Under the pieces are notes generated by a model. It was not told where the DNA came from, made no database searches, and saw only the letters and a program-made list of their open reading frames with translations. From Pelotomaculum sp. (GTDB lineage Bacteria; Bacillota; Desulfotomaculia; Desulfotomaculales; Pelotomaculaceae): a DNA stretch of 56,268 bases. Location of the stretch: positions 1 to 56,268 of the forward strand of contig JAHDOA010000059.1 in NCBI GenBank assembly GCA_018435055.1, given 5' to 3'. The position numbers and the translations under genes are program-made. Below, piece by piece: positions 24,194-36,088 of the stretch (positions are counted from its first letter, which is position 1; each line of letters starts with the position of its first letter).

Positions 24194-24260
24194 ATCGTAT
24201 TTTACCTGAATTTAAAAGAAAAGAAGTTTTTATGAACAGATTAGAAAGGAGTCTGATTTG

Positions 24261-25394
24261 GTGAAAAAAGTTTTAGTTTTATTTCTAATGTTGACGACAA
24301 TATTTTGCTTGAGCGGTTGTGGGAGCAAAGAAACTGCCTCTACGAAGACGGCAGAAAAAGAAATACCCACACTGTCCTTTGCCTATGGTACTGACACGCA
24401 TACCTGTCTGCCCAATGTCGCAATGAAAGACCCCGGGGCCTTTGCTAATAAGTCTGTACGGATAAATCCTGTTAGCGACACCCAGTTTGAATTAATCAAA
24501 GACAAAAATATTATAGCCAGGTTCAATGTTCTTCCCAGTAAAAGCGGCGCGGAATCTGCAACCATGATGGCTCAAGGACAGCTGGATTCGGTCTTATGCT
24601 CTAATACCGCCATGCTTTCTGCTTATGATGTCGGCACTAATATTAAAATCTTGTCCCCTCTTCAAGGCGGGGGTGTCTCCATGATAATGGCCCCTGAAAC
24701 AGATTTTTACGGCTGGGATTCTATTAAGAAATATATTGAAAGCTCGCAGTCACCAGTTAAAATTGGCTACCATTCCGCTATTAGTGGTCCTAGAATCCTA
24801 ATCGAGTCCATTTTGAAAGATGCCGGTTTTAAGCTTACCGAGGATCCGGCTGACACGACTGCAGATGTATTGATGGTTGACCTGAAGGGAGCGCAGAATC
24901 TGCTGCCTTCAATTAGAAGCGGGGCCGTAGATGCTTGGGTAGGACCCTCTGCCCACCCTGAAAACGCAGTTGATCAAGGTTTAGGGAAAATAGTTATGAC
25001 CCTGGCAGATTTTCCGCCCCAGGGCAAATGGACGGTATTCCCCTGCTGTGTATTGGCGGCTGCAGACAAAGTAATCCAAGAACATCCTGAGGTTATTGAA
25101 GCTTTGGTTAGTGTAGTTGCTGATTGCACTGAATATGCCAGCACTAATCCGGAAAAGTTTGCTGAAATAAATTCACCCATCATCGGTATTAAAAAAGAAG
25201 TGATCATGGCAAGCAATGAAAATATTGTCTACAGCAGTGTTCCTTCACAGGAATGGCAGGATGGCATAAAATTGTATTTTGATGCTATTAAGTCAATGGG
25301 TAAATTTACTGACCGCCTCAAGGATACTGATTTTACAACCGTGCAGAAAGAAATATTTGATTTCTCCTTTGTAGAAAAAGCCAACGCCAGCTAG
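24261..25394 (+). CDS. ABC transporter substrate-binding lipoprotein (NitT/TauT-type)
   Basis: The 377-residue protein starts with a lipoprotein signal (hydrophobic LVLFLMLTTIFCLSGC, lipidation Cys near residue 20). Then follows a periplasmic-binding fold of the SsuA/TauA/NMT1 kind, which captures small organic solutes outside the cell. The GAESATMMAQGQLDSVLC block is the usual helix that contacts the ligand. I chose GTG 24261 because GAAAGGAG ends 9 bases before it; TTG 24258 is the alternative. Permease and ATPase genes follow. The ligand cannot be read from the sequence; nearby amidohydrolases hint at an organic acid or amide, weakly. Confidence 0.85.
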   Translation: MKKVLVLFLMLTTIFCLSGCGSKETASTKTAEKEIPTLSFAYGTDTHTCLPNVAMKDPGAFANKSVRINPVSDTQFELIKDKNIIARFNVLPSKSGAESATMMAQGQLDSVLCSNTAMLSAYDVGTNIKILSPLQGGGVSMIMAPETDFYGWDSIKKYIESSQSPVKIGYHSAISGPRILIESILKDAGFKLTEDPADTTADVLMVDLKGAQNLLPSIRSGAVDAWVGPSAHPENAVDQGLGKIVMTLADFPPQGKWTVFPCCVLAAADKVIQEHPEVIEALVSVVADCTEYASTNPEKFAEINSPIIGIKKEVIMASNENIVYSSVPSQEWQDGIKLYFDAIKSMGKFTDRLKDTDFTTVQKEIFDFSFVEKANAS

Positions 25395-25411
25395 GTAAGA
25401 TGGAAATGCAC

Positions 25412-25466
25412 ATAGGCAGGTACAGCCTTTGCTTCAACCATAGAGCAAAGGCTGAGATCTGCCTAT
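25412..25466 (+). promoter_or_regulatory. Strong hairpin between the binding-protein and permease genes
   Basis: ATAGGCAG (25412-25419) pairs with CTGCCTAT (25459-25466), and AGCCTTTGCT (25424-25433) with AGCAAAGGCT (25444-25453). Such hairpins after binding-protein genes protect the upstream mRNA and reduce readthrough, giving more binding protein than permease. No long T-run follows, so it is probably not a full terminator. Confidence 0.65.
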
Positions 25467-25499
25467 TCTTATGTTCAGGGTGCTGGAGAAGAGGATGAC

Positions 25500-26336
25500 A
25501 TGCATAAGACGATAAAGACAATCATTTTATCTTTAATTCTGCCTGTATTACTGATGGTTATCTGGCAGTTTTCCGCCTGGCAGGTGAATAACGCAGCAAT
25601 AATTCCTACCATTGGCCGGGTTGTGGAAAACTTTATAAATGCCAGTGACAATTTTATCGGTTTGGGTTCTATACCGCGCAATGTAGGCGTCAGCTTGATA
25701 CGAGTCTTGAGCGGTTACACTGCGGGGGTGTTGATAGCTGTGCCGTTGGGGGTGTTAATGGGCTATAGCAAAACCGTCCAGATAATATTTGAAACTTTTA
25801 TCAATATTTTTAAACCCATCCCCCCTCTGGCTTGGCAGCCGCTAGCCCTGGCTATATTTGGTGTATCAAGTATAGCCAGCCTTCTCAATATGCCCTTCGG
25901 CCAAAATTATGTATTCTGGGGAAACTTTAAAATCGCTATGGTCTTTTTGATTGGCATGGGTAGTTTTTTTCCTATTGTTGCCAGTGTTATGTTTGGGGTG
26001 CAAAATGTCCGCCAAACACTTATTGATTCAGCCCGGGTACTGGGCGCCAGTGAAAAGGACATATTCTTTAAAGTCCTTATGCCGGCAGCTGCTCCCAGCA
26101 TTATCAATGGCCTGAGAATGGGGTTGGCGATTGGTTGGGCTTGTCTGGTTGGGGCAGAAATGCTGCCCGGCAGTTTGGCGGGTGTCGGCTATCTCATAAC
26201 TCATGCCTATGAACTGGCCAGAACTGATTTAGTCATCACCGGCATGATTTGTATTGGTTTGGTTGGCGCTCTTTTGGACAGTATTTTCAGAATAATTGCT
26301 AATAAATATTTCTCTTGGGAAAGTAAAACGAGGTAA
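25500..26336 (+). CDS. ABC transporter permease (SsuC/TauC-type)
   Basis: The 278-residue protein has about six membrane helices and the cytoplasmic coupling-loop motif typical of binding-protein-dependent permeases (DSARVLGASEKDIFFKVLMPAAAPSIINGLRMGL, near residues 175-208, which contains the EAA-like loop). It forms the channel of the importer whose binding protein lies upstream and whose ATPase lies 8 bases downstream. The start ATG follows GGAGAAGAGG. Compared with TauC it carries a short extra segment (GVSSIASLLNMPFGQNYVF) around residue 125. Confidence 0.88.
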   Translation: MHKTIKTIILSLILPVLLMVIWQFSAWQVNNAAIIPTIGRVVENFINASDNFIGLGSIPRNVGVSLIRVLSGYTAGVLIAVPLGVLMGYSKTVQIIFETFINIFKPIPPLAWQPLALAIFGVSSIASLLNMPFGQNYVFWGNFKIAMVFLIGMGSFFPIVASVMFGVQNVRQTLIDSARVLGASEKDIFFKVLMPAAAPSIINGLRMGLAIGWACLVGAEMLPGSLAGVGYLITHAYELARTDLVITGMICIGLVGALLDSIFRIIANKYFSWESKTR

Positions 26337-26344
26337 ACGTAAGT

Positions 26345-27097
26345 ATGCAGGAAATGATCCGGGTGGATAATTTGGAGAAAATATTTTACAGTCAGAGTTA
26401 TATGGAGATAAAGGCCTTGACTGAAGTGAACCTTAGTGTGCCTGGTAATGAATTTCTGTGTATTTTGGGGCCTTCCGGTTGCGGCAAATCAACTCTCTTA
26501 CGTATCATTGCCGGCTTAGAAACTGCCAGCTCGGGCAAGGTGTTCTATAATGGGCAGGAGCATACGAAGCCCCGCCGTGAAATAGGCATGGTATTTCAAA
26601 GTTACTCGCTGATGCCCTGGCTTACCGTCTTGGACAATATAGCGCTGGGCCTGGAATTCGCAGGCTTATCCAGACCAAAACGGATCAGCATAGCCGAAGA
26701 GTATCTGGATATGATTGGTATGAACAGTTTTGGTAAAGCTTTCCCATATGAACTGTCCGGGGGGATGCAGCAGCGGGTGGCAATTGCACGGGCACTTGCC
26801 AATAATCCCGAGGTTTTGTTAATGGACGAGCCTTTTGGCGCGCTTGACGCGTACACCCGCATTGTCATGCAGAAGGAATTGCTGCGTATATGGGAACAAC
26901 ATAAGAAAACCATTCTTTTTGTTACCCACAGTGTTGATGAGGCTGTTTATCTGGGAGACCGCATTATCTTAATGAGCGGCAGCCCCGGCCGGATTAAAAA
27001 GGATATTGCGATAACCATGCCACGGGTCCGTGAGCGCAGAAATCCTCTTTATGGCAAGTTAACTGAAGAACTGCTTGCATTGCTGGAGGAGGCTTAG
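26345..27097 (+). CDS. ABC transporter ATP-binding protein (SsuB/TauB-type)
   Basis: This is a complete 250-residue ATPase subunit. Walker A GPSGCGKST is near residue 42, the Q-loop MVFQSYSL near residue 84, the signature LSGGMQQR near residue 138, Walker B VLLMDEPFGALD near residue 158 and the switch His in FVTHSVDEA near residue 195. It powers the permease encoded just upstream. A hairpin at 27206 ends the operon. Confidence 0.93.
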   Translation: MQEMIRVDNLEKIFYSQSYMEIKALTEVNLSVPGNEFLCILGPSGCGKSTLLRIIAGLETASSGKVFYNGQEHTKPRREIGMVFQSYSLMPWLTVLDNIALGLEFAGLSRPKRISIAEEYLDMIGMNSFGKAFPYELSGGMQQRVAIARALANNPEVLLMDEPFGALDAYTRIVMQKELLRIWEQHKKTILFVTHSVDEAVYLGDRIILMSGSPGRIKKDIAITMPRVRERRNPLYGKLTEELLALLEEA

Positions 27098-29490: not shown

Positions 29491-30207
29491 ATGCCGGAGG
29501 AATTTAAACCAGGATGTCAGAGACCGCCAATTAAGAAAACGAATGTGGAGACAGATATTGCTGCCGGGCCGGTAGTGAAGGAGGCGAAAAAATCTATGGT
29601 AAAAGTGGGGAAACCAGCCCCCGACTTTACAGCCCCAGCCTTTCATCAGGGTAAGTTCGTGAATATTGGATTATCCGAACTCAAGGGGAAATGGGTAGTA
29701 TTATGTTTCTACCCGGGGGATTATACCTTCGTCTGAGCTACAGAAATTGCAGCAGTTGCTGCGAAATACCCTGAATTTCAGAAATTAGGCGCAGAAGTGC
29801 TGTCTGTAAGTGTTGACAGCGTTTTCGTACACAAGATGTGGAATGACAATGAACTATCCAAGATGATCGGACATGATATCCCATTCATGATGTGTTCCGA
29901 CCAGGATGGGAGCATCGGTAAGGCCTATGGTATATATGATGAAGACAGTGGCGTGGAGACCCGGGGCAGATTTATAATTGATCCCGATGGGATTATCCAG
30001 GGATTTGAAGTCCTTACCCCGCCGGTGGGACGCAATGTCAAGGAGTCACTTCGTCAACTGCAAGCCTTCCAATTAGTAAGAGCTTCAGGTGGTACCGAAG
30101 CCACTCCTTCAGGTTGGAAACCAGGCAAGCAGACTTTGAAGCCCGGCCCGGACCTGGTTGGCAACGTTTGGCAGGTCTGGAAGGTGGAGCAGGCTTTCGA
30201 AGATTAG
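29491..30207 (+). CDS. prxU: Selenocysteine peroxiredoxin (UGA at codon 82 read as Sec)
   Basis: Peroxiredoxins reduce peroxides at a peroxidatic Cys in the motif FYPxDxTFVCPTE. Here the reading is FYPGDYTFV, then TGA at 29734-29736, then ATEIAAVAAKYPEF, so UGA sits exactly at the catalytic Cys position. Both sides continue as one 238-residue AhpC-type protein in the same frame. A SECIS-like hairpin starts 12 bases after the UGA. The C-terminal resolving VCP motif of AhpC is missing: the equivalent place reads EATPSGW. Other Cys are near residue 14 and in MMCSDQDG. Sec peroxiredoxins are known from Clostridia. The ribosome site GAGAGGAGGG supports the ATG. A second selenoprotein gene follows by 45 bases. 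Confidence 0.9.
29749..29762 (+). promoter_or_regulatory. SECIS-like hairpin of the Sec peroxiredoxin gene
   Basis: GCAGC (29749-29753) and GCTGC (29758-29762) enclose the loop AGTT. The loop starts 17 bases after the UGA and contains the G-U expected for SelB binding. Outer bases (ATT and AAT) can extend the stem. Confidence 0.65.
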
Positions 30208-30252
30208 ATAGTACCAGAATTCCCGGGTGGTAACACCAGAGGGGGAATTTAG

Positions 30253-30363
30253 ATGGAGGAAAAGAAGCCCTGGTACAAAATCTGCCCGCCGTGAATGTTA
30301 ATTTATATTCTGCTGGCAGCAGTAATCGGGTTATTTGCCTTGATTAAGTATTTGTTTTTATAA
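30253..30363 (+). CDS. 36-residue single-helix membrane selenoprotein with a C-P-P-Sec motif
   Basis: ATG 30253, preceded by GAGGGGG, opens MEEKKPWYKICPP. TGA follows at 30292-30294, and the same frame continues as MLIYILLAAVIGLFALIKYLFL to TAA at 30361. If the UGA is Sec14, the protein has a charged N-terminal tail, a C-x-x-U redox motif (Cys11, Sec14) and one membrane helix. The part after the UGA has the composition of a true helix and a clean stop. A hairpin with a GGC loop lies 20 bases after the UGA, within the usual SECIS distance. The gene is 45 bases after the Sec peroxiredoxin and before a shared terminator. A membrane-anchored electron donor to that peroxiredoxin is a natural inference. 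I do not recognise a named family. Confidence 0.7.
30310..30322 (+). promoter_or_regulatory. SECIS-like hairpin of the small membrane selenoprotein
   Basis: CTGCT (30310-30314) and AGCAG (30318-30322) enclose the loop GGC. ATT and AAT outside can lengthen the stem with one bulged base. The loop begins 20 bases after the UGA. Confidence 0.55.
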
Positions 30364-30387: not shown

Positions 30388-30424
30388 AGCCCCTGAAGGC
30401 CAGGCCTCCCGGGGCTATTTTGTA
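30388..30424 (+). terminator. Terminator of the selenoprotein operon
   Basis: AGCCCC (30388-30393) and GGGGCT (30411-30416) form the outer stem, with GGCC pairs inside, followed by ATTTTGT. It ends the unit made of the peroxiredoxin and the small selenoprotein. Confidence 0.7.
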
Positions 30425-32320: not shown

Positions 32321-33184
32321 TCAAACTAGCCCCAGGAGCTGCTGCGCGTTTTCACCCAGTATTCTGGCAATGGCCGGCCGGGAAATGGGCAGGTTCTTTA
32401 TGGTTTCAATGCTCTTTTTAACATCCATAACAGTTGTTTTTCTATTAGCCAGGTTGATTATAGGAGAAGGCCAGTCAGTGCCAAAAATGAATTTATGAGC
32501 AAACCGTTCCATATCTGGGAAGATTTCTATGAGATTTTTAGGGGGCAGGCCGGAAATGTCAATATAAACATTCCTGTGCAGGCGGGCCATGCACATAGCT
32601 TCATCAAACCACGGGCCGCGACCCCCGTGCGCCATAATGATTTTCAGATTAGGGAAGTCCACAGCCACATCATCAAAATATAGCGGATTTCCATATTTTG
32701 TACGGGAATTGACAAATATCGACGTCCCGGTATGGTAGCTCACCGGTATGTCCAGCCTTTCAGCGACAGCATACAGAGGGTACAGAATATGGTCATTGGG
32801 GTAAAAATGATGATAGGGGGGATAGAGCTTGAGCCCCTTGAAACCGTGGTTTAAGCATAAGTCCTCTAGTTTTTCACCCATATTAGGATGGCGGTGAGGG
32901 TCCAGCGTGCAAAAAGGTATTAATCGCGGGCTCACCTGGCAAAAAGCCTCTACTGCTTCATTCATATGACTGCCGTTTGATAGAGTCTTGCTCCCAGCTA
33001 AAATAACAGCGTAATCCAGCCCCAGCTGATCCATCAATTGTAGATAATTATGCGGGTTACTGTACTTATTGCAGAAAGCCAGCATATCTTCTCTAGTAGG
33101 GTAAGCGCTGGACAATAATTCAATAATACTCGTTGTGTTGATCTCGAGTTCGGTAAGGTGCACATGGAAATCGATGATAGTCAA
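32321..33184 (-). CDS. Amidohydrolase (Amidohydro_2), intact paralogue
   Basis: The 287-residue protein has the TIM-barrel metal-hydrolase signature: DFHVH at residues 4-8, the H-rich block MAHGGRGPW near residue 175 and FGTDWPSP near residue 232. The family includes ACMSD-type decarboxylases and lactone or amide hydrolases acting on small organic acids. It is very similar along its full length to the broken copy at 22921-23797, so the two come from a duplication that also separated them by 9 kb. No partner gene adjoins it, and the substrate cannot be inferred. Confidence 0.85.
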   Translation of the reverse strand: MTIIDFHVHLTELEINTTSIIELLSSAYPTREDMLAFCNKYSNPHNYLQLMDQLGLDYAVILAGSKTLSNGSHMNEAVEAFCQVSPRLIPFCTLDPHRHPNMGEKLEDLCLNHGFKGLKLYPPYHHFYPNDHILYPLYAVAERLDIPVSYHTGTSIFVNSRTKYGNPLYFDDVAVDFPNLKIIMAHGGRGPWFDEAMCMARLHRNVYIDISGLPPKNLIEIFPDMERFAHKFIFGTDWPSPIINLANRKTTVMDVKKSIETIKNLPISRPAIARILGENAQQLLGLV

Positions 33185-34427: not shown

Positions 34428-34784
34428 ATGGATAAAATTTATATAGAAGGTTCCAGGGTATTCAAAGCGTTAGGCGACCCCAGAAGGGCGATGATTGTTG
34501 ATATGCTCTCCTGTGGAGAATTATGCGCCTGTAAGATTTTGGAGAAGTTTGCCATGTCCCAGTCCACCCTCTCACATCATATGAAACTGTTATGCGAGTG
34601 TGGTTTGGTTGTGGGACGAAACGAGGGAAAATGGACGTATTATTCTCTCAGTGCCGATGGCATTGCCAGAACAAAGCAATTCTTCTGCGACATCACTTCC
34701 GACAAGGAAAATTGCATTTGCAAAGAATTGAATCCGGATCAATGCAGTTGTAATGTAAATGGCAGATGTAATGTAAATGACTGA
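34428..34784 (+). CDS. arsR: ArsR-family arsenic/metal-responsive repressor
   Basis: The 118-residue winged-helix repressor has a helix-turn-helix near residues 42-62 (AMSQSTLSHHMKLLCECGLV). Cys29, Cys33 and Cys35 (SCGELCACK) place thiols in the alpha-3 region where E. coli ArsR binds As(III). The last 25 residues add a Cys-rich tail (CICKELNPDQCSC and more). It would sit on the palindrome at 34371-34405 and release it when As(III) binds. It is first in an operon with arsP-like, thioredoxin-like, CMD-like and arsM genes. The Cys-rich tail is unusual and may bind further arsenic or thiols. Confidence 0.9.
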   Translation: MDKIYIEGSRVFKALGDPRRAMIVDMLSCGELCACKILEKFAMSQSTLSHHMKLLCECGLVVGRNEGKWTYYSLSADGIARTKQFFCDITSDKENCICKELNPDQCSCNVNGRCNVND

Positions 34785-34813
34785 ATGAAACAGAAATTAG
34801 AGGTGGTTGTACG

Positions 34814-35818
34814 GTGTTAATATTTACATGGCTTAACAATCAATTGCTCAAGATGCAATGGCTGTACGATCTGGTGCAAAATTTTGTAGAGCAGGTTTTG
34901 GGGCTTAGTATCCAGGATAGGCTGGGCGGCAGTATTCATTTTTTCATATACGATGTGGTGAAAATATTTATACTGCTTTCTGTGCTTATTTTTACAATAT
35001 CCTATGTCCAAAGCTTCTTTCCCCCGGAGAGAACGAAAAGAATATTAGGCGGCTACAAGGGGATTACAGCAAATATTTTCGGAGCTTTGCTGGGCACCGT
35101 CACGCCCTTCTGCTCCTGCTCGTCGATACCGTTGTTTATTGGATTTACCAGCGCCGGCCTGCCACTCGGGATTACATTCTCATTTTTGATTTCATCTCCG
35201 CTGGTAGATCTGGCATCTATAATTCTTATTGCCAGCATCTTTAACTGGAAGATAGCCATCGCCTATGTTGTGGTCGGGCTTATTCTTGCGGTGATCGGAG
35301 GGACCATCATCGGCAATGCTAAACTTGAAAATCATGTAGAGTCTTTTGTTTACAGCAATGCAATGGTCGATATGGATCAAGAGGCCTTGACCGTAAAAGA
35401 GCGGCTTGATTATGCCAAAGAACAGGTGCTTAATATTGTCAAAAGAGTATGGCTCTATATCTTGATTGGTGTCGGGATAGGCGCCGTCATTCATAACTGG
35501 ATACCGGAAAATGTCATATCTGCGGTGCTGGGGCAGGATAAGTGGTATTCCGTACTTGTTGCCACGTTAGTAGGAGTTCCAATGTATGCGGATATCTTTG
35601 GCACGTTGCCCATAGCTGAAGCATTAGTCTATAAGGGGGTAGGTTTAGGCACTGCGCTTTCCTTCATGATGGCGGTGACCGCACTTTCCCTTCCTTCGTT
35701 AATCATGCTTAAAACGGCGGTTAAAATAAAGCTTTTGGCTATCTTCTTTGCAGTTGTAACTTTAGGTATTATTATCATTGGATATACATTCAATGTGTTT
35801 GGGTATTTGCTAATGTAA
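34814..35818 (+). CDS. arsP: ArsP-like permease (DUF318) for methylated arsenicals
   Basis: The 334-residue membrane protein has eight or so helices and the DUF318 hallmark TPFCSCSSIPLFIGF near residues 98-112, followed by GLPLGITFSFLISSPLVD. A second copy-like motif is VGVPMYADIFGTLPIAEAL near residue 255. ArsP of Campylobacter exports trivalent organoarsenicals, which fits the arsM gene two genes on. A central cytoplasmic loop (residues about 175-205) carries charged residues. The start is GTG after AGAGGTGG. Related DUF318 proteins occur without arsenic genes, so the substrate rests on the operon. Confidence 0.85.
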   Translation: MLIFTWLNNQLLKMQWLYDLVQNFVEQVLGLSIQDRLGGSIHFFIYDVVKIFILLSVLIFTISYVQSFFPPERTKRILGGYKGITANIFGALLGTVTPFCSCSSIPLFIGFTSAGLPLGITFSFLISSPLVDLASIILIASIFNWKIAIAYVVVGLILAVIGGTIIGNAKLENHVESFVYSNAMVDMDQEALTVKERLDYAKEQVLNIVKRVWLYILIGVGIGAVIHNWIPENVISAVLGQDKWYSVLVATLVGVPMYADIFGTLPIAEALVYKGVGLGTALSFMMAVTALSLPSLIMLKTAVKIKLLAIFFAVVTLGIIIIGYTFNVFGYLLM

Positions 35819-35857
35819 TATAAGAACATAAAGCATAAGAATAGGAGGACAAATTAA

Positions 35858-36088
35858 ATGATTATTAAAATTTTAGGAACAGGCTGCGCAAACTGTAATA
35901 AATTGGAGCAAAATACAAGAAAGGCTGTAGACGAGCTTGGACTTGCCGCGACTGTTGAGAAAGTGCAGGACTTGAAAGCGATCGCCAGGTATGGTGTCAT
36001 GAGGATACCGGCTTTAGTGATTGATGAGGAAATAAAAGTTGTCGGCAAGGTCTTAAAGGTTGAAGAAATAAAAGCGTTATTAAAATAA
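35858..36088 (+). CDS. Small thioredoxin-like redox protein (redox-active disulfide protein 2 type)
   Basis: The 76-residue protein has a mini-thioredoxin/glutaredoxin fold with the active site GTGCANCNKL (Cys-x-x-Cys near residues 9-12) and the cis-Pro RIPALVID near residue 50. Proteins of this kind are often encoded with DUF318 permeases. It may reduce arsenate or arsenical disulfides, or deliver electrons to ArsM or the permease Cys; this is inference. A ribosome site AGGAGG is well placed. It is followed closely by the CMD-like gene. Confidence 0.85.
   Translation: MIIKILGTGCANCNKLEQNTRKAVDELGLAATVEKVQDLKAIARYGVMRIPALVIDEEIKVVGKVLKVEEIKALLK

Follow-up and report, generated by a model that had tools for sequence, protein, structure and literature searches.

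PrxU, a Sec peroxiredoxin (NF040737), resembles the predicted small membrane selenoprotein reported here in being its operon-like neighbour, in having a Sec UGA followed by a hairpin and in occurring in the same organisms, whereas it is a soluble enzyme of 238 residues with a thioredoxin fold, has Cys homologues and is unrelated in sequence to the small protein. In eukaryotes, selenoproteins K and S are single-pass membrane proteins decoded by the eukaryotic mechanism; they share the single pass and the cytosolic side of Sec with the small protein, but are longer and carry Sec near the C-terminus, and homology to it is not expected. The small Sec-containing subunit VhuU of a Methanococcus hydrogenase is a very short polypeptide and, like the small protein, an independent one; unlike it, VhuU is archaeal, has split off from a [NiFe] hydrogenase and carries a UxxC motif, belongs to a soluble complex and has known Cys homologues. 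In a 2026 inventory of prokaryotic selenoproteins, which covers 119 families or subfamilies, VhuU is listed under MvhA/VhuA/VhuU, and a putative mercuric transport selenoprotein (PF02411) under the motif C/SxxU (PMC13188914). The latter is a membrane protein with Sec placed by a helix and a motif comparable to the CPPU found here, but it represents a different sequence family, and no member of the small family matches PF02411. DsrE/DsrF/TusD-like proteins have the fold of a recurrent downstream neighbour, not of the small protein.

Nothing recognisable as the small family is included in that inventory (PMC13188914). Furthermore, no NCBIfam model matched any of 24 members at E 0.1, Pfam returned only sub-threshold matches for the same 24, and looking up the small protein in PDB was uninformative. 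The published, openly accessible literature, with Haft 2023 and 2025 represented by a review table and the NCBIfam models, yielded no account of a family of this kind. The preliminary description knew of no named family, and none emerged from NCBIfam, Pfam or the 119-family inventory; the family is likely, though not proven, to be new. According to its authors, the homology step of deep-Sep may filter out selenoproteins without Cys homologues (PMC12013277), which would explain why the small family has been missed.

The small gene, its homologues and their genomes

The window, i.e., the whole stretch of 56,268 nucleotides analysed, contains an ORF on the forward strand at 30253-30363, whose translation with TGA read as U is MEEKKPWYKICPPUMLIYILLAAVIGLFALIKYLFL (36 aa). 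It is laid out as an AGGGGG ribosome-binding site (30240-30245), ATG, 13 codons, TGA (30292-30294, the predicted Sec codon for residue 14), 22 codons and TAA; a purine-rich site also precedes the starts of most homologues. Directly upstream on the same strand lies PrxU (29491-30207; 238 residues), recognised by the NCBIfam equivalog NF040737 at 394 bits (cut-off 270) and by an AhpC-TSA match, with its own in-frame Sec TGA at 29734-29736 and its own hairpin at about 29747-29764 (stem GCAGC/GCUGC). The PrxU stop and the start of the small ORF are 45 bases apart, and a terminator-like hairpin at 30388-30416 (forward strand), common to both genes, is kept in relatives. The preliminary description had read the TGA as splitting one short gene, placed 45 bases downstream of a Sec peroxiredoxin and ahead of a shared terminator and too small for gene finders; translation through the TGA and the homologues confirm this reading, and the frame is indeed cut in half at the UGA by annotation.

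Including the window, 34 distinct sequences were readable across the Sec codon, i.e., 33 further homologues, spread over seven or more taxonomic families within the phylum of the window. Three of these copies, each with one internal TGA, came from a search of 100 related genomes and belong to two other species of the genus and to another genus of the same taxonomic family. Profile searches added one member from another taxonomic family within the window's order and four from a 398-genome phylum sample, which also yielded one homologue broken off by a contig end just past the Sec position. In a single scan of 84,980 genomes, a degenerate pattern in which the Sec position could be TGA, TGC or TGT returned 22 loci, comprising 21 members, all with TGA, and one unrelated match. 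Finally, a 24-row profile applied to 71 genomes of the order of G450 identified 26 places in 25 carriers, each with exactly one TGA, ten of them new members. Carriers included Desulfotomaculaceae, Pelotomaculum, Desulfoscipio, many soda-lake Syntrophomonadaceae and other Bacillota MAGs. Both the pattern scan and the profile searches were able to detect a Cys form, and none was found in either; the Cys homologues at position 14 for which the preliminary description had suggested looking were therefore not recovered. Bacterial selenoproteins usually have Cys homologues, although these are not a requirement.

Weak matches in family f14 (L006, L020, L025), antisense to another gene, and a pattern match in Formosa (L075) were dismissed as chance, and a phage origin was rejected after the same pattern gave no match in 2.9 million viral contigs. 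One genome (G522) carries two different copies of the small gene (L094, L102), and two members (L100 in G518 and L101 in G516) have a shortened or altered N-terminus without the usual PWYK while keeping SPU and the hairpin.

Regarding the Sec machinery, on which the preliminary description had made its reading depend, the window's genome encodes both SelB (367.6 bits) and a tRNA-Sec with anticodon UCA. Among 23 other carrier genomes, selB was found above the curated cut-off in 21, versus 263 of 398 in the phylum sample. None above the cut-off was found in G537 (the same MAG as G503, with locus L066), rated 97% complete, or in G513 (the same as G502, with locus L065), 86% complete. In these two draft MAGs an assembly gap is perhaps responsible; otherwise they would be genomes unable to decode UGA, and they constitute a weak point for Sec decoding.

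Probable decoding of the internal UGA as Sec

The internal codon was TGA in 34 of 34 readable homologues. In close pairs, pN/pS in frame after the UGA was 0.46, and 0.33 in the codons past the hairpin, compared with 0.32 before the UGA and 0.89-1.98 in the other two frames after it; differences after the UGA by codon position were 438/298/705, i.e., mostly at third positions. These patterns indicate that the frame beyond the UGA is under purifying selection reaching the end of the ORF. Conservation of the frame past the UGA in relatives, which the preliminary description had treated as decisive, was accordingly found across the 34 homologues.

Additional evidence is provided by a SECIS-like hairpin at 30307-30325 (forward strand), 12-30 bases past the UGA, in which the stem 30307-30313/30319-30325 closes an apical loop UGGCA (30314-30318). 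All members have a C-U-G-C/G-C-A-G stem or its equivalent around UGG[C/G]A (or UGG[C/G]G). With 24 sequences, 91.1% of the cells were paired, with 7 double changes and a covariation score reached by 0 of 500 shuffles; with 34, these values rose to 93.7% and 16 double changes in four of the seven pairs, and the covariation score was 0.251 against 0.113 in shuffles (0/500) and at most 0.081 with the partner slid. The clearest covarying pair, columns 18/32, was A-U in 23 members, C-G in 4, G-C in 3 and G-U in 1, and several of its switches change the protein (V24 to G or A), matched by a change in codon 19; the same pair (30309/30323) is a U-U mismatch in the window and two relatives. Single-sequence folding z-scores of the small ORF were weak (-1.2 to -1.6), so that the argument for the hairpin comes from covariation. 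In bacterial SECIS elements the loop is expected 16-37 nt downstream of the UGA, with G among its first two positions (PMC13188914); here the loop starts 19 nt after the UGA, and this placement and the loop UGG[C/G]A fit that consensus. The hairpin proposed in the preliminary description is supported by the covariation; in the loop UGGCA the G is second, and it is first, as in that description, if the U-A pair is counted as closing. The Rfam model SECIS_1 (RF00031) matched nowhere, controls included, and is the wrong model for bacteria.

Two readings in which a Sec-containing protein would not be the functional product were weighed against these data. If the UGA were a plain stop, the locus would encode a 13-residue leader followed by a reinitiated 22-residue membrane peptide, as the TGAATG of the window might suggest; the codon after the UGA is indeed ATG there and in nine other members. 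Nevertheless, a common start codon (ATG, GTG or TTG) directly follows the UGA in only 15 of 34 sequences, with GTA or GTC in four, so that reinitiation does not explain the second half and was rejected. A plain stop should also vary, as the terminal one does in the first 24 members (TAA 21, TAG 2, TGA 1), yet the internal codon never does, and hairpin covariation together with selB in carrier genomes makes this reading hardly credible. It is very unlikely, though somewhat less so, that UGA and hairpin form a selenium-responsive switch controlling the next gene, with the peptide as a by-product. The retention of UGA and hairpin throughout, and a DsrE-like gene starting closely behind the small ORF in six loci, would suit a switch, whereas the ORF closes its operon, ahead of a terminator, both in the window and in the congeners, selection at the amino-acid level extends to the ORF end, and no downstream gene is common to most loci. 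Finally, reading UGA as Trp was discarded, since TGA closes ordinary genes in the window and is thus not a general sense codon.

The joint conservation of UGA, frame and hairpin in 34 homologues is, as judged from sequence comparison, far beyond chance. Since at least 34 related genes of anaerobic Bacillota all keep UGA and hairpin, they very probably represent a new family of unusually small selenoproteins. In this context, we consider it highly probable that the ORF is a real gene, decoded with Sec at the UGA, for a 35-40-residue single-pass inner-membrane selenoprotein of a new family with no known Cys form.

The predicted membrane helix and the gene neighbourhood

In the 24-row alignment, M1, W7, P13, U14, Y18, L20 and L21 did not vary, and K4, G26 and L30 hardly did, although W7 is absent in a few later-found members. 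The Cys three residues before Sec (CPPU) is confined to the four sequences from the taxonomic family of the window; the others have I/V/L-S-P-U or, in three, I/L-P-P-U, and mostly no Cys at all, and hence no internal resolving residue. The Cys-x-x-Sec pair of the preliminary description therefore holds within that taxonomic family and not elsewhere. Its single-helix membrane protein is supported by the AlphaFold2 model, made without a template, which predicts one helix over residues 13-35 (30289-30357, forward strand; mean pLDDT 81), a 36-residue model that carries little information beyond where the helix starts, and by hydropathy, with the most hydrophobic 19-residue stretch at 13-31 (mean 2.66). 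With the helix starting at residue 13, Sec14 would lie in its first turn, after a Ser/Pro-Pro cap. By the positive-inside rule the positively charged flank of a membrane helix stays cytoplasmic; K+R averages 3.5 before the helix and 0.7 after it, which points to an N-in orientation with the N-terminus and Sec at the cytoplasmic face of the membrane.

The small gene directly follows PrxU in three congeners only. An amidohydrolase gene on the opposite strand (32321-33184), with relatives at L056 and L058, adjoins the PrxU/small-ORF pair in congeners and, in genomes lacking the small ORF, still identifies the equivalent locus. The neighbour seen most often is a DsrE-fold protein of 112-115 residues, the next gene downstream in the six loci mentioned above, which span three taxonomic families. 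It has an invariant ICKACSA motif (CKAC pair) and matches Pfam DsrE weakly (E 0.0075), while its predicted fold (pLDDT 95) matches DsrE/DsrF-type structures, the closest being 2fb6 and 2pd2, with 2qs7, 3pnx and 2hy5 also matching. At L066 a rhodanese lipoprotein and a peroxiredoxin lie downstream. Most loci have no neighbour in common, and the partner is therefore uncertain.

Some other genes near PrxU or in the window may be mentioned. In a soda-lake Syntrophomonadaceae MAG (L123 in G520), an ORF reading FKFYCFPTUTTCRKAKAW... lies directly downstream of PrxU and is apparently arsenate-reductase/Spx-like, with an in-frame TGA and U-x-x-C. In the window, an ABC transporter at 24258-27097 (substrate-binding protein, permease and ATPase) has SaoX, SaoP and SaoA of the organometal-linked Sao system among its best or near-best NCBIfam matches, none of which reaches its curated cut-off. 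At 34428-36088 a regulator-like ORF stands in a row with a permease, whose matches to SaoE and SO_0444 efflux transporters fall short of the cut-off, and a small thioredoxin of the ArsE type, whose match to TIGR00412 exceeds it; this looks like an arsenic or metal resistance cluster.

Possible roles of the predicted membrane selenol

In the explanation favoured here, which is judged somewhat more likely than not as a whole, the small protein would be a membrane-anchored selenol that swaps redox equivalents with cytosolic sulfur or peroxide proteins. Genes with sulfur or peroxide chemistry beside it speak for this view (PrxU at three loci, the DsrE-fold CKAC protein at six, rhodanese plus peroxiredoxin at L066), as does the Sec-form PrxU of many carrier genomes. 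In such a mechanism, SelB would bind the hairpin just past the UGA and insert Sec at residue 14; the positively charged N-terminus would stay in the cytoplasm, with the remainder forming one membrane helix, and Pro13-Sec14, as the first helix turn, would set a selenolate at the cytoplasmic surface of the membrane, where the helix dipole and nearby lysines and arginines may stabilise it. The selenol could then attack a peroxide, a persulfide or polysulfide, or a disulfide at the membrane surface and be restored by a dithiol protein of the cytosol, for which the neighbouring DsrE-fold CKAC protein is a candidate in several lineages. In the CPPU subgroup, the Cys three residues earlier could form an internal Se-S bond, to be opened by a thioredoxin-type reductant, which would fit the place of the gene in the PrxU operon. 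This picture of a fixed redox nucleophile, restored by a dithiol protein of the cytosol, is a plausible but tentative proposal. Slightly more doubtful is the wider idea of a Sec-obligate single-helix family in which Cys is unable to replace Sec and the selenol, tethered to the cytoplasmic face of the membrane, acts as a relay from oxidants carried by the membrane (peroxides, polysulfides, quinones) to DsrE-type or peroxiredoxin partners in the cytosol.

Two other roles compete with a selenol that exchanges redox equivalents. The small protein might serve a larger membrane complex as a structural or regulatory subunit, comparable to CydX for cytochrome bd; in that case, Sec binds a metal or cofactor or serves as a Se-S anchor and does not catalyse. 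Its size and single helix resemble those of small membrane subunits, W7, P13, Y18 and the LL pair are as conserved as Sec in the 24-member alignment, and the general scarcity of a second Cys and of a constant neighbouring enzyme would agree with it; nonetheless, we regard this as rather unlikely, with DsrE-like or peroxiredoxin proteins recurring alongside the gene and no complex doing so. Less likely still is the role proposed in the preliminary description, a dedicated membrane reductant or partner of PrxU acting through the C-P-P-U pair. The operon-like order, the short spacing and the common terminator in three congeners speak for it, as does Sec-form PrxU above the cut-off in 22 of 31 carrier genomes, a frequency counted among carriers alone after the two non-carriers had been set aside. 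On the other hand, no PrxU was found above the cut-off in the other nine carriers, many of them partial MAGs; CPPU is confined to the window's taxonomic family; two sister species (G002, G005) have Sec-form PrxU at the corresponding place with no small ORF behind it; and, of seven stretches downstream of PrxU that were read, only that of the window holds the small gene. A family-wide partnership was rejected on account of the nine carriers and the two sister species. Since CPPU and adjacency to PrxU are local, a dedicated PrxU reductant is possible in this genus, while it is not the role of the family, and the earlier proposal is supported in part.

In brief, selenoprotein discovery mostly depends on Cys homologues, and very short ORFs are lost in annotation; the small family escapes both, yet in one Bacillota order 25 of the 71 genomes searched carry it. 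This indicates that there are tiny selenoproteins for which no Cys form is known and that read-through profile searches can recover them, and the family offers a minimal system for asking why Sec has never been replaced by Cys.
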